Positions 31,447 through 59,507 of a stretch of 62,561 nucleotides of DNA are shown here, piece after piece. A model generated the notes under the pieces. It searched no databases, was not told where the DNA came from, and worked only from the letters and a program-made list of their open reading frames with translations. Source of the stretch: an uncultured Bacteroidales bacterium (GTDB lineage Bacteria > Bacteroidota > Bacteroidia > Bacteroidales > Muribaculaceae); NCBI GenBank assembly GCA_946412245.1, contig CAMKGM010000014.1, positions 1-62,561 of the forward strand, read 5' to 3'. Made by a program: the position numbers and the translations under genes. How positions within the stretch are numbered: position 1 is the stretch's first letter; each line of letters starts with the position of its first letter.

Positions 31447-32535
31447 CTACTTGGCAGGCCGGATGGTTGCTACTATATACTCCGATTGTGTTCCGATGCG
31501 GTATTTGCCGCCCCAGATTCCTATACCGGAACTCACGTAGAAACGCGTCTTTCCTTTTTTGTAGGACCCGAATGACACTTCATACATCGCATCGGTCACC
31601 CAACTGATGGGCCATATCTGCCCACGATGTGTGTGGCCGCTCAACTGAAAGTCCACGTTCTCATTGGCGACTTCATCAAGGTGATAGGGCTGATGGTCGA
31701 GAGTGATGACGAATTTGCCACGGTCAGCGTCTTTAAGTAGGGTAGCAAGCGATTTGCGATGTCGGTTGGTTCGGTCGTCACGGCCCGCAAGCTCTATCTC
31801 GCCAATAGTGGCAACTGAGTCACGTAGCAGATGAATGCCGGCATCGGCATAGAATTTCTGTGCCTTCTTGTCGCCGCTGATGTATTCATGATTACCCAAG
31901 CAGGCATAGACCGGTGCCTTCAAGCGATGAAACTCTTCGGCCACATTTTCCACAACCAGAGGATGTGCGCTCATGTCAATTATGTCACCCGCTATCAAAA
32001 TCAGGTCGGGTTTCTCCTTATTAATCAGATCTACCCATCGGCTGAACTCGGCCCGACGGTTGTGGAACCCTAAATGCAAGTCACTCATCATCACCACCTT
32101 CATGGGTGTGGTAATCTTGGTTGAAGGCAAGTCTAACTCCACACGCACCTTGTTGTTGTATTGTATGTTGCCGTACACAAACAAGCCTATCAACAATAGC
32201 GTTAAGCCACCGGCAGTCCACCAATTGTTGCGCAACACCGAGGTCGGGATCACATGGCACAAACGCAAAATGTCAAGCAGCAAGAAAGCGAGCACAAGAT
32301 ACAGCATCACCTCTAACCAGGTAGTGCCGGTTTCATATAGCGCTTCAGTCGCTCCAAGGGACCATCTCTCTGACACCATAAAACTCACGAACAACGATGC
32401 CATTGCCATGAACATCAGTACGACGACGCACACACGCGCCCACACCGGCAACGGCAACAACTGCCACACACGCCACGACACGTAGGCATGTCCCAAAACG
32501 GGGATGAGCATAAACAAGAGGAAACCTAACTTCAT
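31447..32535 (-). CDS. Membrane-anchored metallophosphoesterase
   Basis: 362 residues. Four hydrophobic segments occupy the first 125 residues. The calcineurin-like phosphoesterase domain follows, with VMMSDLHLGFHNR, ILIAGDIIDM, CLGNHEY, ITLDHQP and SGHTHRGQIW supplying the two-metal site. It resembles YkuE/YaeI-type enzymes that act at the membrane, sometimes on lipid A precursors or other phosphoesters; the substrate is not evident. Its promoter lies 100 nt downstream of the 25-nt motif and repeat array shared with the locus at 58 kb. Confidence 0.88.
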   Translation of the reverse strand: MKLGFLLFMLIPVLGHAYVSWRVWQLLPLPVWARVCVVVLMFMAMASLFVSFMVSERWSLGATEALYETGTTWLEVMLYLVLAFLLLDILRLCHVIPTSVLRNNWWTAGGLTLLLIGLFVYGNIQYNNKVRVELDLPSTKITTPMKVVMMSDLHLGFHNRRAEFSRWVDLINKEKPDLILIAGDIIDMSAHPLVVENVAEEFHRLKAPVYACLGNHEYISGDKKAQKFYADAGIHLLRDSVATIGEIELAGRDDRTNRHRKSLATLLKDADRGKFVITLDHQPYHLDEVANENVDFQLSGHTHRGQIWPISWVTDAMYEVSFGSYKKGKTRFYVSSGIGIWGGKYRIGTQSEYIVATIRPAK

Positions 32536-32563
32536 TTTAGCAGCATTTGTAGATTGTGTGGCA

Positions 32564-32595
32564 CAAAATTACTATAATTCAGCGATACCCACAAA
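32564..32595 (-). promoter_or_regulatory. Promoter for the metallophosphoesterase gene
   Basis: On the minus strand TTTG (32595-32592), a 20-bp spacer, then TAATTTTG (32571-32564), 28 nt before the ATG. Confidence 0.65.
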
Positions 32596-32636
32596 TCAAG
32601 ACCAGTTGTCAGTTTGCAAGGGTAAGATAGTGATTG

Positions 32637-32661
32637 TTGGGAAATTTTATGGTACTCTCGT
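32637..32661 (-). repeat. 25-nt motif shared with 58428-58452
   Basis: On the minus strand it reads ACGAGAGTACC...TTTCCCAA over 25 nt and is identical to the plus-strand copy at 58428. The two copies are in opposite orientation in the window, but both point toward a downstream gene that starts about 100 nt later. Just upstream (32703-32698 and 32669-32664) GGTTAT and ATAACC form a spaced inverted repeat spanning 40 nt. Confidence 0.85.
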
Positions 32662-32695
32662 GGGGTTATGAGGGGCTGTCAGTGTTAGTAACTCG

Positions 32696-33175
32696 CTAAT
32701 AACCATACGATACGGTGAAGAAATCATCGGGATTGGGGTTGTGTACTTCCGTTGGTTTTATTGTGTACTTTCGAGGAATTTCTGTGTACTTTCGAGCGAT
32801 TTTTGGGGTTTCATTGTGTACTTTCGTAGCGTTTTTGTGTACTTTCGTTGGCCTTGATTTGAGCCGAACGCGGTTGAATTGTTGCGCTAATTGAGGCGGT
32901 ATTCCCATGCGTTGGTTGAGTTGTGCCTGACTGAGGGGTATCACTTGCCAGTACCCATTTCGTTTGGTGCCGATATGGCGAATGACTCTCATGGCTTCAA
33001 GAACACGAATGTGTTTAGCGATGGCCTCGCGAGAACGGAACATGAGTTTAGCGATACCGGCAATGGAAATGCGTCCGTTGTGTGCGAGAATGAGATTGAT
33101 GATGTAAGCGCGCACATTGTTGCCGTGAACGAGTTGTGCGATGGTGGCATAGAGTGTTTTAGAAATAGTTTTCAT
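32696..33175 (-). CDS. Small winged-helix DNA-binding protein with repeat-encoded tail
   Basis: 159 residues. Residues about 15-80 look like a winged helix: NVRAYIINLILAHNGRISIAGIAKLMF, then SREAIAKHIRVLEAMRVIRHI as recognition helix and wing. This is similar to ArsR/MarR-like or initiator-type folds. Residues 110-145 are read from five copies of an 11-bp DNA repeat and give TKVH, TKVH, RKYT, RKYT and TEVH. The frame changes between copies, so the tail is probably dictated by DNA-level constraint. I recognise no named family. It lies upstream of, and in the same orientation as, the metallophosphoesterase gene and may bind the repeats it encodes. Confidence 0.7.
   Translation of the reverse strand: MKTISKTLYATIAQLVHGNNVRAYIINLILAHNGRISIAGIAKLMFRSREAIAKHIRVLEAMRVIRHIGTKRNGYWQVIPLSQAQLNQRMGIPPQLAQQFNRVRLKSRPTKVHKNATKVHNETPKIARKYTEIPRKYTIKPTEVHNPNPDDFFTVSYGY
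32741..32847 (-). repeat. Iteron-like array: five CGAAAGTACAC copies inside the winged-helix gene
   Basis: Copies (plus coordinates, minus strand) are 32741-32751 (one mismatch, CGGAAGTACAC), 32763-32773, 32784-32794, 32816-32826 and 32837-32847. Start-to-start spacings are 22, 21, 32 and 21 bp, close to whole helical turns, so all copies present the same face of the helix. Confidence 0.92.
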
Positions 33176-34150
33176 GGTGATAAAGATTTAATAATGTTTG
33201 CGTATGTGAGTGCGAAGATAATACCCGGGGCGATGCGGATGCTATGGTAATCGCACAGTTTAGCTGACGAGTAGACAATGGAACTAGAGGCTGTTTTTAA
33301 GACATAAGGACAGAAGTTCATAAGATTTTGTAGCTGTTTTTTAAATGCGTATTTTGCTAATTTGGCTAAAATTTGGCAAATTTATATTTTAGCGTAATTC
33401 GTAAAATTCGTGTCATTCGCTTGAATATTAGTGTGTGGTAAACGAGGGGGTCGCCGCCGGCGACGAGAGAGAAGGGGCATCAATACCCCCCTTGATGCTT
33501 GTGCCGCTCGCTAACGCTCGCTCCACAACCATCAAAGGGGGTTATCAAATGGTCAGCCTCCGGCTGATGCTCAGGCTGAGAGGAGAGATGCTCTGGCGGA
33601 AAGGGAAGTGAGGGTGGGAAGGTTGTTGCAAAAGTTACAAGTACATTTCAGCAGGAGTGAAAATCGCTATACTGTCGCTGTTGAAGTTCCTCAATGTTGA
33701 GAAAAGCTTCAATGCTCTTCGAGCACCGCACACCGGCCTGGCGGCCGACTCATGCTTTGAAGTTTTCTCGAGCACTTCGTGGTTCGAGGCACGGCCATAA
33801 GTCGCTGTCTGTCACCAAACTGCGAGGACCTTCGGCCCTCAATGTTGGGTCGAGTGGTGCTGCCTGACGGCACCGCACGCCACTTCGTGACTCGTGCTGC
33901 ACCATCTCCCCGAGCACTTCGTGGTTGCATGGTGTTAATCATGATTGCGACTCTCCGAGCCGCTTGGCCTCTTCGAGGTCATTTCTGCTTTTGAAACAGT
34001 TTCACAAACGCTGCGACATCATCACGAACCCAGCATTGTGGGTAGTGGAGCTGGAGGGGTTTGTGATGAGTGTCGCTTGCTTTGCAAACGCGCACCGCAC
34101 TTCGTGCGACAAACGCTGCGACATCATCACGAACCCAGCATTGTGGGTAG
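33176..34150. other. Non-coding region between the winged-helix gene and tmRNA
   Basis: No supportable gene. The part to 33420 is A/T-rich with TTCGT-type repeats (GTAATTCGTAAAATTCG). From about 33430 to 34000 the DNA is clearly richer in GC, with several hairpins and the motif GAGCACTTCGTGGTT at 33769-33783 and again near 33912-33926. Short frames here (for example around 33709-33942) lack signals and are composed of repeated Arg/Pro-rich sequence. It may be decayed inserted DNA or a cluster of structured intergenic repeats. Confidence 0.6.
33485..33540. repeat. Long imperfect hairpin
   Basis: CCCCCTTGATG with TTGTG on the left pairs with CACAA and CATCAAAGGGGG on the right, about 16 pairs. 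The loop contains CGCTCGCTAACGCTCGCT, itself a direct repeat of CGCTCGCT. A second small hairpin TCAGCC-TCC-GGCTGA follows at 33553-33567. Confidence 0.6.
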
Positions 34151-34168
34151 TGGAGCTGGAGGGGTTTG
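34004..34168. repeat. 60-bp direct repeat containing the tmRNA 3' end
   Basis: 34004-34063 and 34109-34168 are identical over 60 bp, 105 bp apart. The second copy contains the true last 18 nt of tmRNA (34151-34168) plus 42 bp of downstream flank; the first copy is a duplicate outside the gene. The 45 bp between them include GCACCGCACTTCGTGCG. This is either a tandem duplication or an attachment-site scar; tmRNA 3' ends are common integrase targets. Confidence 0.85.
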
Positions 34169-34549
34169 AACCCTCGTCCAAACGCGGAACTAATGAGCTT
34201 TCTACATGCTTAGTCTCGACTTGATTTTCGACGACAGGCAGGCTCAAGACAACCAACCGGTCGCTTATCCTCTAAATTTCGAGCCAAGCGCGAGGAGAGC
34301 GAGGCTCTATTTCCGATATTCCTGCACCACCTGTTCGAAACGCCTCGGAACAACGGCAATCGGGTGATGTCTCGTCTCCAAGCCTTGCTCAGAGATCAAG
34401 CCAACCTACTATTCTTCGGTTAGGCAGCGAGAGCGTAGTTGTTTTCGCCATTTAAAATTTAGTGATGACTGAGATTCGAGAGCATTGCCATCATCGCTCT
34501 GCATGCTTACTCACCACCTCATCACGCTGTCAAAGCCAAATCAGCCCCA
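34151..34549 (-). ncRNA. ssrA: Transfer-messenger RNA (tmRNA)
   Basis: About 399 nt on the minus strand. The 5' end GGGGCTG pairs with CAGCTCC at the 3' end in a tRNA-like acceptor. The T-arm is near GGGTTCAAACCC, and the discriminator is A without an encoded CCA. The tag frame lies at 34449-34420 and reads GENNYALAA then TAA, the Bacteroidales-type degradation tag. tmRNA rescues stalled ribosomes with SmpB, whose gene is at 56.4 kb. A consensus promoter lies about 22 nt upstream, implying a short 5' leader removed by RNase P. Confidence 0.95.
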
Positions 34550-57952: not shown

Positions 57953-58274
57953 ATTTAACTCTTCAATCCCACATTCAATACTGTAACTCAAATAAGTTGC
58001 CGTTCATTTCCGATTTTAATATAGAAAAAATCATAATTTATATTATGTTAAATACAAATAATGCAACAACACAAGTTGCTGAAGCATGCATCCCCAACTC
58101 GCGAGTTATAATCACAAATCCTCACTCCTTATTCTTCCCGTTTCAATTGAAATACTACTTTTGTGATTCACATTTCACATCCCTCCATTTTGATTTATAT
58201 TTGCCAATCAAACGCGCACATTGACATCCTTTCCATTTTACTTATCGCTTTATTTGCCCAATTAGACCCATCAC
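57953..58274. other. Non-coding region left of the second repeat array
   Basis: A/T-rich with no supported gene; a 75-codon frame at 57997-58224 has no signal or family features. TATATTTG at 58196-58203 fits a -7 box pointing toward the array and could start a short non-coding transcript, but the -33 is weak (TTTC). Confidence 0.45.
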
Positions 58275-58349
58275 CGAAAGTACACAAATATCATTCGAAA
58301 GTACACAATTTTTAATCGAAAGTACACAATCAAATTCTCGAAAGTACAC
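58275..58349 (+). repeat. Iteron-like array: four CGAAAGTACAC copies
   Basis: Exact copies at 58275-58285, 58296-58306, 58317-58327 and 58339-58349, spaced 21, 21 and 22 bp. The spacers differ. It is the same 11-bp unit as the array in the winged-helix gene at 32.7-32.8 kb, here outside any gene. GGCCTG (58381-58386) and CAGGCC (58414-58419) form an inverted repeat spanning 39 nt downstream. Confidence 0.93.
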
Positions 58350-58427: not shown

Positions 58428-58452
58428 ACGAGAGTACCATAAAATTTCCCAA
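58428..58452 (+). repeat. 25-nt motif shared with 32637-32661
   Basis: ACGAGAGTACC...TTTCCCAA, identical over 25 nt to the copy before the metallophosphoesterase gene. It begins 79 nt after the last repeat (80 nt at the other locus) and ends 104 nt before the next ATG (101 nt at the other). Confidence 0.88.
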
Positions 58453-58556: not shown

Positions 58557-59507
58557 ATGGAACAGCAAGTACAAATACAATGTCCTAACTGCCACACTAC
58601 ACTGATGGTGAAGAATCTCAATAACACGAGTGAGCGAGTAATAAACTGCCCCAAGTGTCAAACCCCGATTCAAGTGGTCTTCGGTGCTACTCAAGCTCCG
58701 ATTCCTCCTTACAATCCGCAAGGCAATATGCCTGTTGGTACACCACCGCCGCCTGCACCTATAACAGAACCTGCGGCACCCGCTAAGGGTAATGGCAATA
58801 AAACCCTGGTGATTGTTCTGCTTTCATTACTTGTTGCTGCGCTGGCCGGTGTGCTCATTTGGCTTCTTTTAATTAAGGATAAGGACAAAACAAGTTCAGA
58901 TTCTGAAACATCCTCATCGTCAGTTAAACAGTACGAAATGGCATCGGCATCAGTTGCGCCTGAAGCATCGGCCTCGGTTGTTGCACTTGACGACGAGATA
59001 CCCGAAATCTCTGCTAATGCCTCAGCCTCAGTGGCACCTGAAACTTACTCTAGAGATTATTCCCTCCCCTACCTCGGTAATTCCTCCTATGGCGTAGGGG
59101 AAAAACTATATAATCAGTTAAGAACGAGTAGCTTCGTAAATGTGTACAACGGCATTTCAGGCAGCGAATTCTCGTCAATTCGACACATGGACACTTCTAA
59201 TTCAAGCAACCAACTCAAGGTCGAGAACAGCGATGGCTATCGCTATCAGTTCTTCTTCATGGGTTCAAATAAAAACAATGGTCGCCTCACCGGCGTTGCC
59301 GTGAGCCGTGCATGTGCTAACCCCTCAAGTGAATGTCTTGATTTTGAGAACTATGTTGCCGGTAGTGGAAACTTTACCTGGGTGAGAGATGGCCTGTATC
59401 GTTCGTCAACCGGATGCTACGTATCGCCGGGCTACTCTAAAGGACGCTTCTACGTTTACTATTACTTGCCAAACGCTCCCGAAAAAGATCCGGCTCCGAG
59501 AAACTAA
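58557..59507 (+). CDS. Zinc-ribbon, single-membrane-span protein of unknown function
   Basis: 316 residues from the ATG at 58557, after the promoter. An N-terminal zinc ribbon CPNCHTTLMV...CPKCQTPIQVVF resembles MJ0042-type fingers. A Pro-rich linker (about 45-78) is followed by one membrane span (TLVIVLLSLLVAALAGVLIWLLLI). Then comes a Ser/Ala-rich stretch with ASASVAPE twice and the related ASASVVAL, and a 140-residue C-terminal domain with aromatic strands (YRYQFFFMGSN, GRFYVYYYLP). The finger is predicted cytoplasmic and the C-terminal domain outside. I recognise no family for the C-terminal domain. The upstream repeat array suggests regulation shared with the metallophosphoesterase. Confidence 0.75.
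   Translation: MEQQVQIQCPNCHTTLMVKNLNNTSERVINCPKCQTPIQVVFGATQAPIPPYNPQGNMPVGTPPPPAPITEPAAPAKGNGNKTLVIVLLSLLVAALAGVLIWLLLIKDKDKTSSDSETSSSSVKQYEMASASVAPEASASVVALDDEIPEISANASASVAPETYSRDYSLPYLGNSSYGVGEKLYNQLRTSSFVNVYNGISGSEFSSIRHMDTSNSSNQLKVENSDGYRYQFFFMGSNKNNGRLTGVAVSRACANPSSECLDFENYVAGSGNFTWVRDGLYRSSTGCYVSPGYSKGRFYVYYYLPNAPEKDPAPRN

Follow-up and report, generated by a model that had tools for sequence, protein, structure and literature searches.

The 62,561-nucleotide contig analyzed here in full (CAMKGM010000014.1 of assembly GCA_946412245.1, from an uncultured Muribaculaceae bacterium; hereafter the window) carries on its minus strand, in an element at 32618..33220, a short winged-helix (WH) gene whose 3' part also forms a row of phased direct repeats. 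We lean toward the view that this region is one complete member of a family of small elements dispersed through the genome, in which the winged-helix protein binds the repeat arrays and controls the elements themselves. More tentatively, we suggest that this is a new kind of intragenomic element, in which a non-catalytic WH gene carries its own phased array as 3' codons selected as DNA, gene-less array copies spread and answer to the same protein, and at least two protein-array pairs (A and B) have diverged in parallel, their sites being combined in composite copies. The portions of the literature reached by our searches hold no description of such elements, and the letters of the repeat unit recur there only in seemingly unrelated contexts. 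The original prediction, made from the window by itself, had offered a new small chromosomal element as one of two readings, and this is supported in part, the two array loci of the window being 2 of 48 that belong to a dispersed family.

The winged-helix element

The element was delimited by homology to a paralogue, G000:C16 (G000 is the genome holding the window, a 3.17 Mb assembly, and G015, G403 and G425 are relatives in the family set), with which it aligns from -44 to +558 relative to the ATG; all six pairwise alignments of four loci of this subfamily, WH-A, end at +558 to +575. Read along the minus strand, it comprises a promoter-like (-7 type) box, TATCTTCG, at 33213..33220, whose form recurs 5' of other arrays, then the WH open reading frame (ORF; 159 aa, 32696..33175), the array, and a 25-nt motif (32637..32661) that ends at about +539. 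The array occupies 32741..32847 within the 3' part of the ORF and has five units spaced by 21, 32, 21 and 22 nt, of which four are exact copies of CGAAAGTACAC (32763-32773, 32784-32794, 32816-32826 and 32837-32847) and one, CGGAAGTACAC at 32741-32751, has 1 mismatch. The 32-nt step shifts the frame, so that the DNA of the units is translated as T-K-V-H or as R-K-Y-T. The gene had been described as ending in five repeats; the ORF and the five units are as described, and a tail ending in DDFFTVSYGY follows them. Matches to the unit with at most 1 mismatch number 10 in the whole window, against 0.84 expected in shuffled sequence.

The 25-nt motif consists of an extra degenerate unit (CGAGAGTACC) followed by ATAAAATTTCCCAA, and an exact second copy lies at 58428..58452 on the plus strand, with 0.00 copies expected in shuffled sequence. 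That copy belongs to a second element lacking a WH gene, with a leader box (TATATTTG) at 58196..58203 and four exact units at 58275..58349 (starts 58275, 58296, 58317 and 58339; spacing 21, 21 and 22 nt), all on the plus strand. Both the exact recurrence of the motif and its near-equal distance from the array, as claimed from the window, hold: from last unit to motif, start to start, we measure 91 and 90 nt, and only 23 of the 80 positions 5' of the motif are identical between the two loci. The same spacing of 90 or 91 nt was found at all seven type A loci checked, in three species. In general terms the motif is a further degenerate unit joined to TTTCCC (in the rumen genome RGIG8059 its form is CGAAAGTACCATGAAATTTCCCA). 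An inverted repeat, GGTTAT/ATAACC, that had been listed as part of the layout is present (32664-32669 and 32699-32704) and is not conserved at G000:C16 or RGIG8059; it was dropped as a part of the element.

The protein has a single winged-helix domain, with a MarR/ArsR-like fold. An AlphaFold model, built from an alignment of 9 sequences and with an overall mean predicted local distance difference test (pLDDT) of 63, places a winged-helix domain with flanking helices at residues 6-105 (32861..33160, minus); block pLDDT is 76-91 for residues 11-90 and below 50 for residues 100-159, and the tail beyond the domain is predicted to be disordered. In structure searches the top matches were MarR and ArsR proteins (AdcR, SmtB and others), AdcR being best at E 2.7e-3 and none falling below 1e-3, and every Pfam score lay under its curated cut-off (best MarR_2, 23.8 bits vs a gathering cut-off of 27). 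For codons 1-102, all six pairings of four WH-A genes give a ratio of nonsynonymous to synonymous substitution (dN/dS) of 0.13-0.16, and the protein is therefore kept by selection. A search of 5.8 billion proteins returned 13 relatives at E <=1e-3, one of them named, as Muribaculaceae.

A dispersed family of arrays

The exact unit CGAAAGTACAC occurs 34 times in the G000 assembly (control 2) and the pattern CGNNHGYRGTAYRA 104 times (control 45). From a reading of the fetched loci we recognize 48 array clusters, 44 with at least 2 units; the other four, with a single unit each, are included on account of their TTCCC trailer. Many clusters sit at contig ends, as assembly-breaking repeats do, and four are found within WH-type ORFs or at their 3' ends; three intact WH genes are present. 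Three unit types occur: A (CGRAAGYACAC), B, whose units are 14 nt long, and III, which has a 23-nt period and the opposite orientation. In all, 22 clusters are composites of A and B units, with A first in 18. Of 101 spacings between units, 90 depart by no more than 1 nt from a multiple of 10.5.

What surrounds the arrays is shared as well. A TATCTTYG-like box stands 5' of 35 of the 48 clusters on the leader strand, within 110 nt in 16 of them, against a background of 0.09 per kb; the search extended over 700 nt (260 nt for type III), and 6 of the 13 clusters without a box have less than 320 nt of searchable sequence. The box resembles TAnnTTTG, the Bacteroides -7 consensus as given in the consulted portion of the source (PMC7366714), and it is promoter-like in its letters. 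Downstream, 36 of 42 clusters have at least 3 TTCCC within 350 nt, compared with 0.75% of 2000 control windows; the steps between these are 9 nt in 122 of 153 cases, and the opposite strand is almost free of TTCCC. This trailer is C-rich and G-poor in 28 of 42 clusters (0.9% of controls), a composition from which we would guess that it might be a Rho site. Among the copy-to-copy alignments listed, 45 of 53 contain the array, at identities of 69-98%, the only pair at 100% being one C67 stretch counted twice. With up to 3 mismatches allowed, the 25-nt motif occurs at four places in the whole genome, three of them behind an array. No transposase was found between leader and trailer.

Other repeats accompany the arrays at some loci. 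In 16 of the 42 clusters that are not of type III, for example G000 C6, C30, C42 and C54, the array is separated from its trailer by REP-like (repetitive extragenic palindromic) inverted pairs (GGTCGTCACC...GTGACGACC). A different repeat of about 85 nt sits within array units, by eye always directly after CGAA, at G000:C51:4301, C5:38070 and C7:6572 and at L204 (the WH-B locus of G403). In some type III elements (G000:C15:17184, C36:188, C2:86558 and C8:70593; G015:C5:5234 and C27) the stretch from leader to array contains a palindrome that is close to AAGATGGCCGATCTCGGCCATCTT or to a variant of this sequence.

The arrays are conserved at the DNA level. In the three gap-free WH-A genes (G000:C16, G015 and RGIG8059; the window copy was excluded, its array being frame-shifted), third codon positions are identical at 24/24 sites in the units, 22/36 in the spacers and 68/102 in the WH domain (Fisher p ~2e-4 for the units against either). 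Third positions are thus frozen inside the units, and the array is therefore selected as DNA despite lying within a gene. Several gene-less copies retain other parts of the gene. G000:C10 is a WH-B gene minus its WH domain with the array retained, and in G403:C17 the WH domain is gone, with the leader, start codon, array and motif still in place; G015:C13 and G000:C1 are similar derivatives. Some gene-less copies are plainly WH genes with a deleted WH domain.

Distribution and protein-array pairing

Among 61 relatives a WH match at E <=1e-3 was found in six genomes and was strong only in G000 and G015, and type II and type I array pairs occur solely in these two. Across 397 family genomes, 23 have a WH profile match at E <=1e-6. 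In 19 of these the match is partial, covering no more than 87 of the 162 positions, with E about 4e-9 to 9e-7. The remaining four, G000, G015, G403 and G425, have strong matches, and it is in these four genomes and no others that type II pairs occur (Fisher p 1e-9, a value that ignores kinship). The three relatives are rumen metagenome-assembled genomes (RUG11362, RGIG8059 and Tb.RUG.442, matching G015, G403 and G425). Type III pairs, with 1 mismatch allowed, were found in G000, G015 and G403 among 81 genus genomes, a set outside which G425 falls. The proposal made from the window tied the arrays to the WH gene, and in line with it no array pairs were found in genomes without a strong WH match (type II pairs in 0 of 393, type I in 0 of 59, type III in 0 of 78).

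Protein and unit also match by type. The intact WH-A genes (G000:C14, G000:C16, G015 and RGIG8059) have A units in 4/4 cases and the WH-B genes (G000:C5, G015, Tb.RUG.442 and G403) have B units in 4/4, at an identity between the two subfamilies of 34-45%. Taken together, these sequence comparisons support the view that the WH protein acts on the repeats.

No relative was found in IMG/VR, either by protein search or with the type I pattern, or in the plasmid and phage collections; two IMG/VR matches to the degenerate type II pattern proved to be unrelated G+C-rich sequence. With no relatives in IMG/VR or in the plasmid or phage collections, a phage or plasmid origin of the family was dropped.

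Three WH-B loci (L130, L128 and L150) have a common neighbor, which we take to be YgiQ-like, in three genomes, and differing genes beside WH-B: a DUF2357/PD-(D/E)XK protein and a PDC-M26A-like AAA protein in G015, PDC-S41 (a Schlafen-type helicase) in Tb.RUG.442, and an unmatched 769-aa protein in G000. Over these few loci the WH-B site looks like a defense hotspot. Adjoining the WH-A gene of G015 (L127:3967-4971, minus) is a 334-aa protein with no Pfam match, which we presume to resemble a REP-associated transposase.

Proposed mechanism and alternatives

Based on these data, we put forward a hypothetical scheme for all members of the family. An element begins with a leader that resembles a promoter, continues with an array in which most units are two helical turns apart, and closes with a trailer, which is the 25-nt motif in type A and otherwise a 9-nt TTTCCC minisatellite. 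In a few copies a short winged-helix gene lies between leader and array, the array forming part of its 3' end; most copies are gene-less. The family would have spread within the lineage of G000. We propose that the units are bound by the WH protein, in a manner that is probably cooperative and confined to one face of the DNA, because protein and arrays co-occur, their types match, and the units are held in helical phase and conserved at the DNA level. The protein would act in trans on all copies. With less certainty, we suggest that its binding mainly throttles the element's own transcription, through autoregulation and the silencing of sister copies rather than control of host genes; this is our best guess because the array lies downstream of the promoter-like leader and ahead of a possible Rho-site trailer. 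If this scheme is correct, the elements form a master-and-satellite repeat family whose master gene encodes only a DNA-binding protein, intermediate among miniature mobile elements, iteron modules and transcription regulators. The family would illustrate the scattering of one protein's binding sites through a genome within a genus, and the existence of two matched protein-array pairs would make specificity directly testable.

Several observations weigh against this scheme. The co-occurrence of gene and arrays may reflect common descent, because only four genomes carry the family, and it is weakened by the WH gene bringing its own array along. The stricter claim is therefore that arrays lie remote from any WH gene in 3 of the 4 strong-match genomes, G425 having shown only the array of its WH gene. 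Gene conversion among units could help to freeze their third positions, and tandem duplication alone could yield the dominant 21-nt spacing. Without the four single-unit clusters the trailer count becomes 32/38; units are absent from the 400 nt around C76, the weaker of the four copies of the 25-nt motif, with 3 mismatches; and at the loci read type III arrays have no partner gene. Alignments of intergenic DNA gave no sharp borders to the elements, and 32500-33300 contains only one inverted pair, away from the ends of the module, with no terminal inverted repeats or target duplications established.

The alternative that fares best, which we nevertheless consider unlikely, is that the family is an ordinary repeat of the miniature inverted-repeat transposable element (MITE) kind. 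An unrelated transposase would then have spread the arrays, as tandem repeats internal to the element, and the WH gene would be an unconnected passenger. Leader, tandem repeats and tail do resemble BrickBuilt as far as the consulted part of its description goes (PMC4596501), copies occur in either orientation relative to genes, and REP-like modules stand behind 16/42 arrays. A passenger gene is hard to reconcile with purifying selection on the WH gene and units frozen at third positions, with a unit type that tracks the WH subfamily, and with the absence of array pairs from genomes that lack a strong WH match.

Somewhat less likely again is a dedicated transcription regulator with a regulon, in which the WH protein would bind arrays 5' of host genes and control them. 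This was one of the two readings of the original prediction, in which the target genes were the neighbors of the two window arrays: a metallophosphoesterase gene (31447..32535, minus; Pfam PF00149) and a zinc-ribbon-like gene (58557..59507, plus; weak zinc-ribbon matches, all under Pfam cut-offs), both outside the elements. The MarR/ArsR-like fold suits such a role, both window arrays precede a gene with the motif about 100 nt away, and ahead of the metallophosphoesterase gene, where a promoter had been predicted, there is a TAnnTTTG box (TAATTTTG, about 32564-32571, minus). In other WH-bearing genomes, however, orthologues of these genes do not have the sites upstream of them. The metallophosphoesterase gene is present in 61 of 81 genus genomes (G403 has no match), and of 30 such loci scanned whole on both strands only the window's own has an array; none was found at the 29 others, G015 included, five of which have lone degenerate units and no pairs. 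In both G015 and G403, which carry WH genes, the zinc-ribbon-like gene found next to the 58.3 kb array has a syntenic orthologue with no array upstream. In the 1.6 Mb of G015 examined, orthologues of >=75% identity exist for 21 genes that flank 18 of the G000 clusters, and no unit lies within 1.5 kb of 20 of them, the exception having a type III array. Three clusters (C4, C7 and that at 58.3 kb) have their two flanks together in G015, with no array there; for most others a single flank was placed and only one side aligned, which leaves the exact interval unproved.

Because 20 of 21 flanking orthologues in this WH-bearing relative have no array, the arrays are, as far as these alignments go, lineage-specific and not conserved operators, and their gain in the G000 lineage appears likelier than their loss in G015. 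Also against a regulon, the next ORF downstream of an array, among simple ORF calls of >=100 aa, is co-directional in 20 of 41 cases. The distance from motif to ATG, 101 and 104 nt in the window as had been noted, is not general; other type A loci differ, and a constant distance was dropped as a rule, since G000:C1 and RGIG8059 share the order of array and motif with the next gene on the opposite strand. The proposed control of the two neighboring genes is thus not supported by the orthologues or by the orientation of downstream ORFs.

We regard as more doubtful still a replication module, akin to the original prediction's idea of an element with its own initiator, in which the WH protein would be a small initiator, the array an origin inside the initiator gene, and the gene-less copies stranded origin fragments. 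The layout, an N-terminal WH domain with units directly behind it within the gene and then the trailer, is like that of phage lambda gene O, and in PHROG the protein weakly matches initiators of the O kind (E 0.008 and 0.037). Against this, no relative is found in plasmids, phages or IMG/VR, the tail is predicted to be disordered so that no helicase-recruiting domain is evident, and a single chromosome would have difficulty sustaining about 48 active origins. A partition or chromosome-organizing system, with numerous, scattered centromere-like arrays bridged or wrapped by the WH protein as by TubR at tubC, seems to us very improbable given that array number differs strongly among related genomes and that Pfam reveals no partition motor among 16 neighboring proteins, the rest of the genome not having been searched for one.

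Elsewhere in the window, a transfer-messenger RNA (tmRNA) gene lies at 34148-34548 (minus), and an RNA scan of six sources found as known RNAs this tmRNA and two tRNAs and nothing else. One copy of an exact 60-nt direct repeat (34004-34063 and 34109-34168) overlaps the 3' end of the tmRNA gene and the other lies 105 nt off, which may be the trace left by an element that integrated at the tmRNA end.

Comparison with known systems

The WH protein shares its fold with the MarR/ArsR regulators, as the matches to AdcR and SmtB indicate. It differs from them in that its Pfam scores lie under the cut-offs and in the phased direct repeats inside its gene, the usual sites of MarR/ArsR regulators being palindromes in promoters.

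In lambda gene O the repeats lie behind the DNA-binding part of the gene. The comparisons that follow draw on the consulted portions of the published accounts. The lambda gene contains four 18-bp iterons and an A+T-rich stretch (PMC3349717), and like it the elements described here have a row of direct repeats inside the gene of their putative binding protein. Unlike gene O, the WH gene has no further domain after the array, there are many dispersed gene-less copies, and a role in replication would be hypothetical. The TubR-tubC system likewise joins a small winged-helix protein to direct-repeat arrays; tubC is upstream of its operon and works with TubZ (PMC5016525), whereas here the array is inside the 3' end of the gene and the 16 neighbors scanned include no motor.

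The elements recall REPIN-RAYT (PMC3116915, PMC3733652) in being short intergenic repeats dispersed in many copies, and some of their arrays adjoin REP-like modules, with the differences that REPs are palindromic and the units here are direct non-palindromic repeats, and that the accompanying gene is no transposase. The BrickBuilt MITE of Porphyromonas gingivalis has a leader, 23-nt tandem repeats (about two helical turns) without spacers and a tail, with small inverted-repeat ends and no internal transposase, in 19 intergenic copies in ATCC 33277 (PMC4596501). The 48 clusters found here share the dispersed intergenic order of leader, tandem repeats and tail; they differ in having units of 11-14 nt with variable spacers and in that terminal inverted repeats are not established, and three copies in G000 encode an intact WH protein. 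Each of the lambda gene O and origin, TubR-tubC, BrickBuilt and REPIN-RAYT thus shares part of the anatomy of these elements, and none shares all of it.
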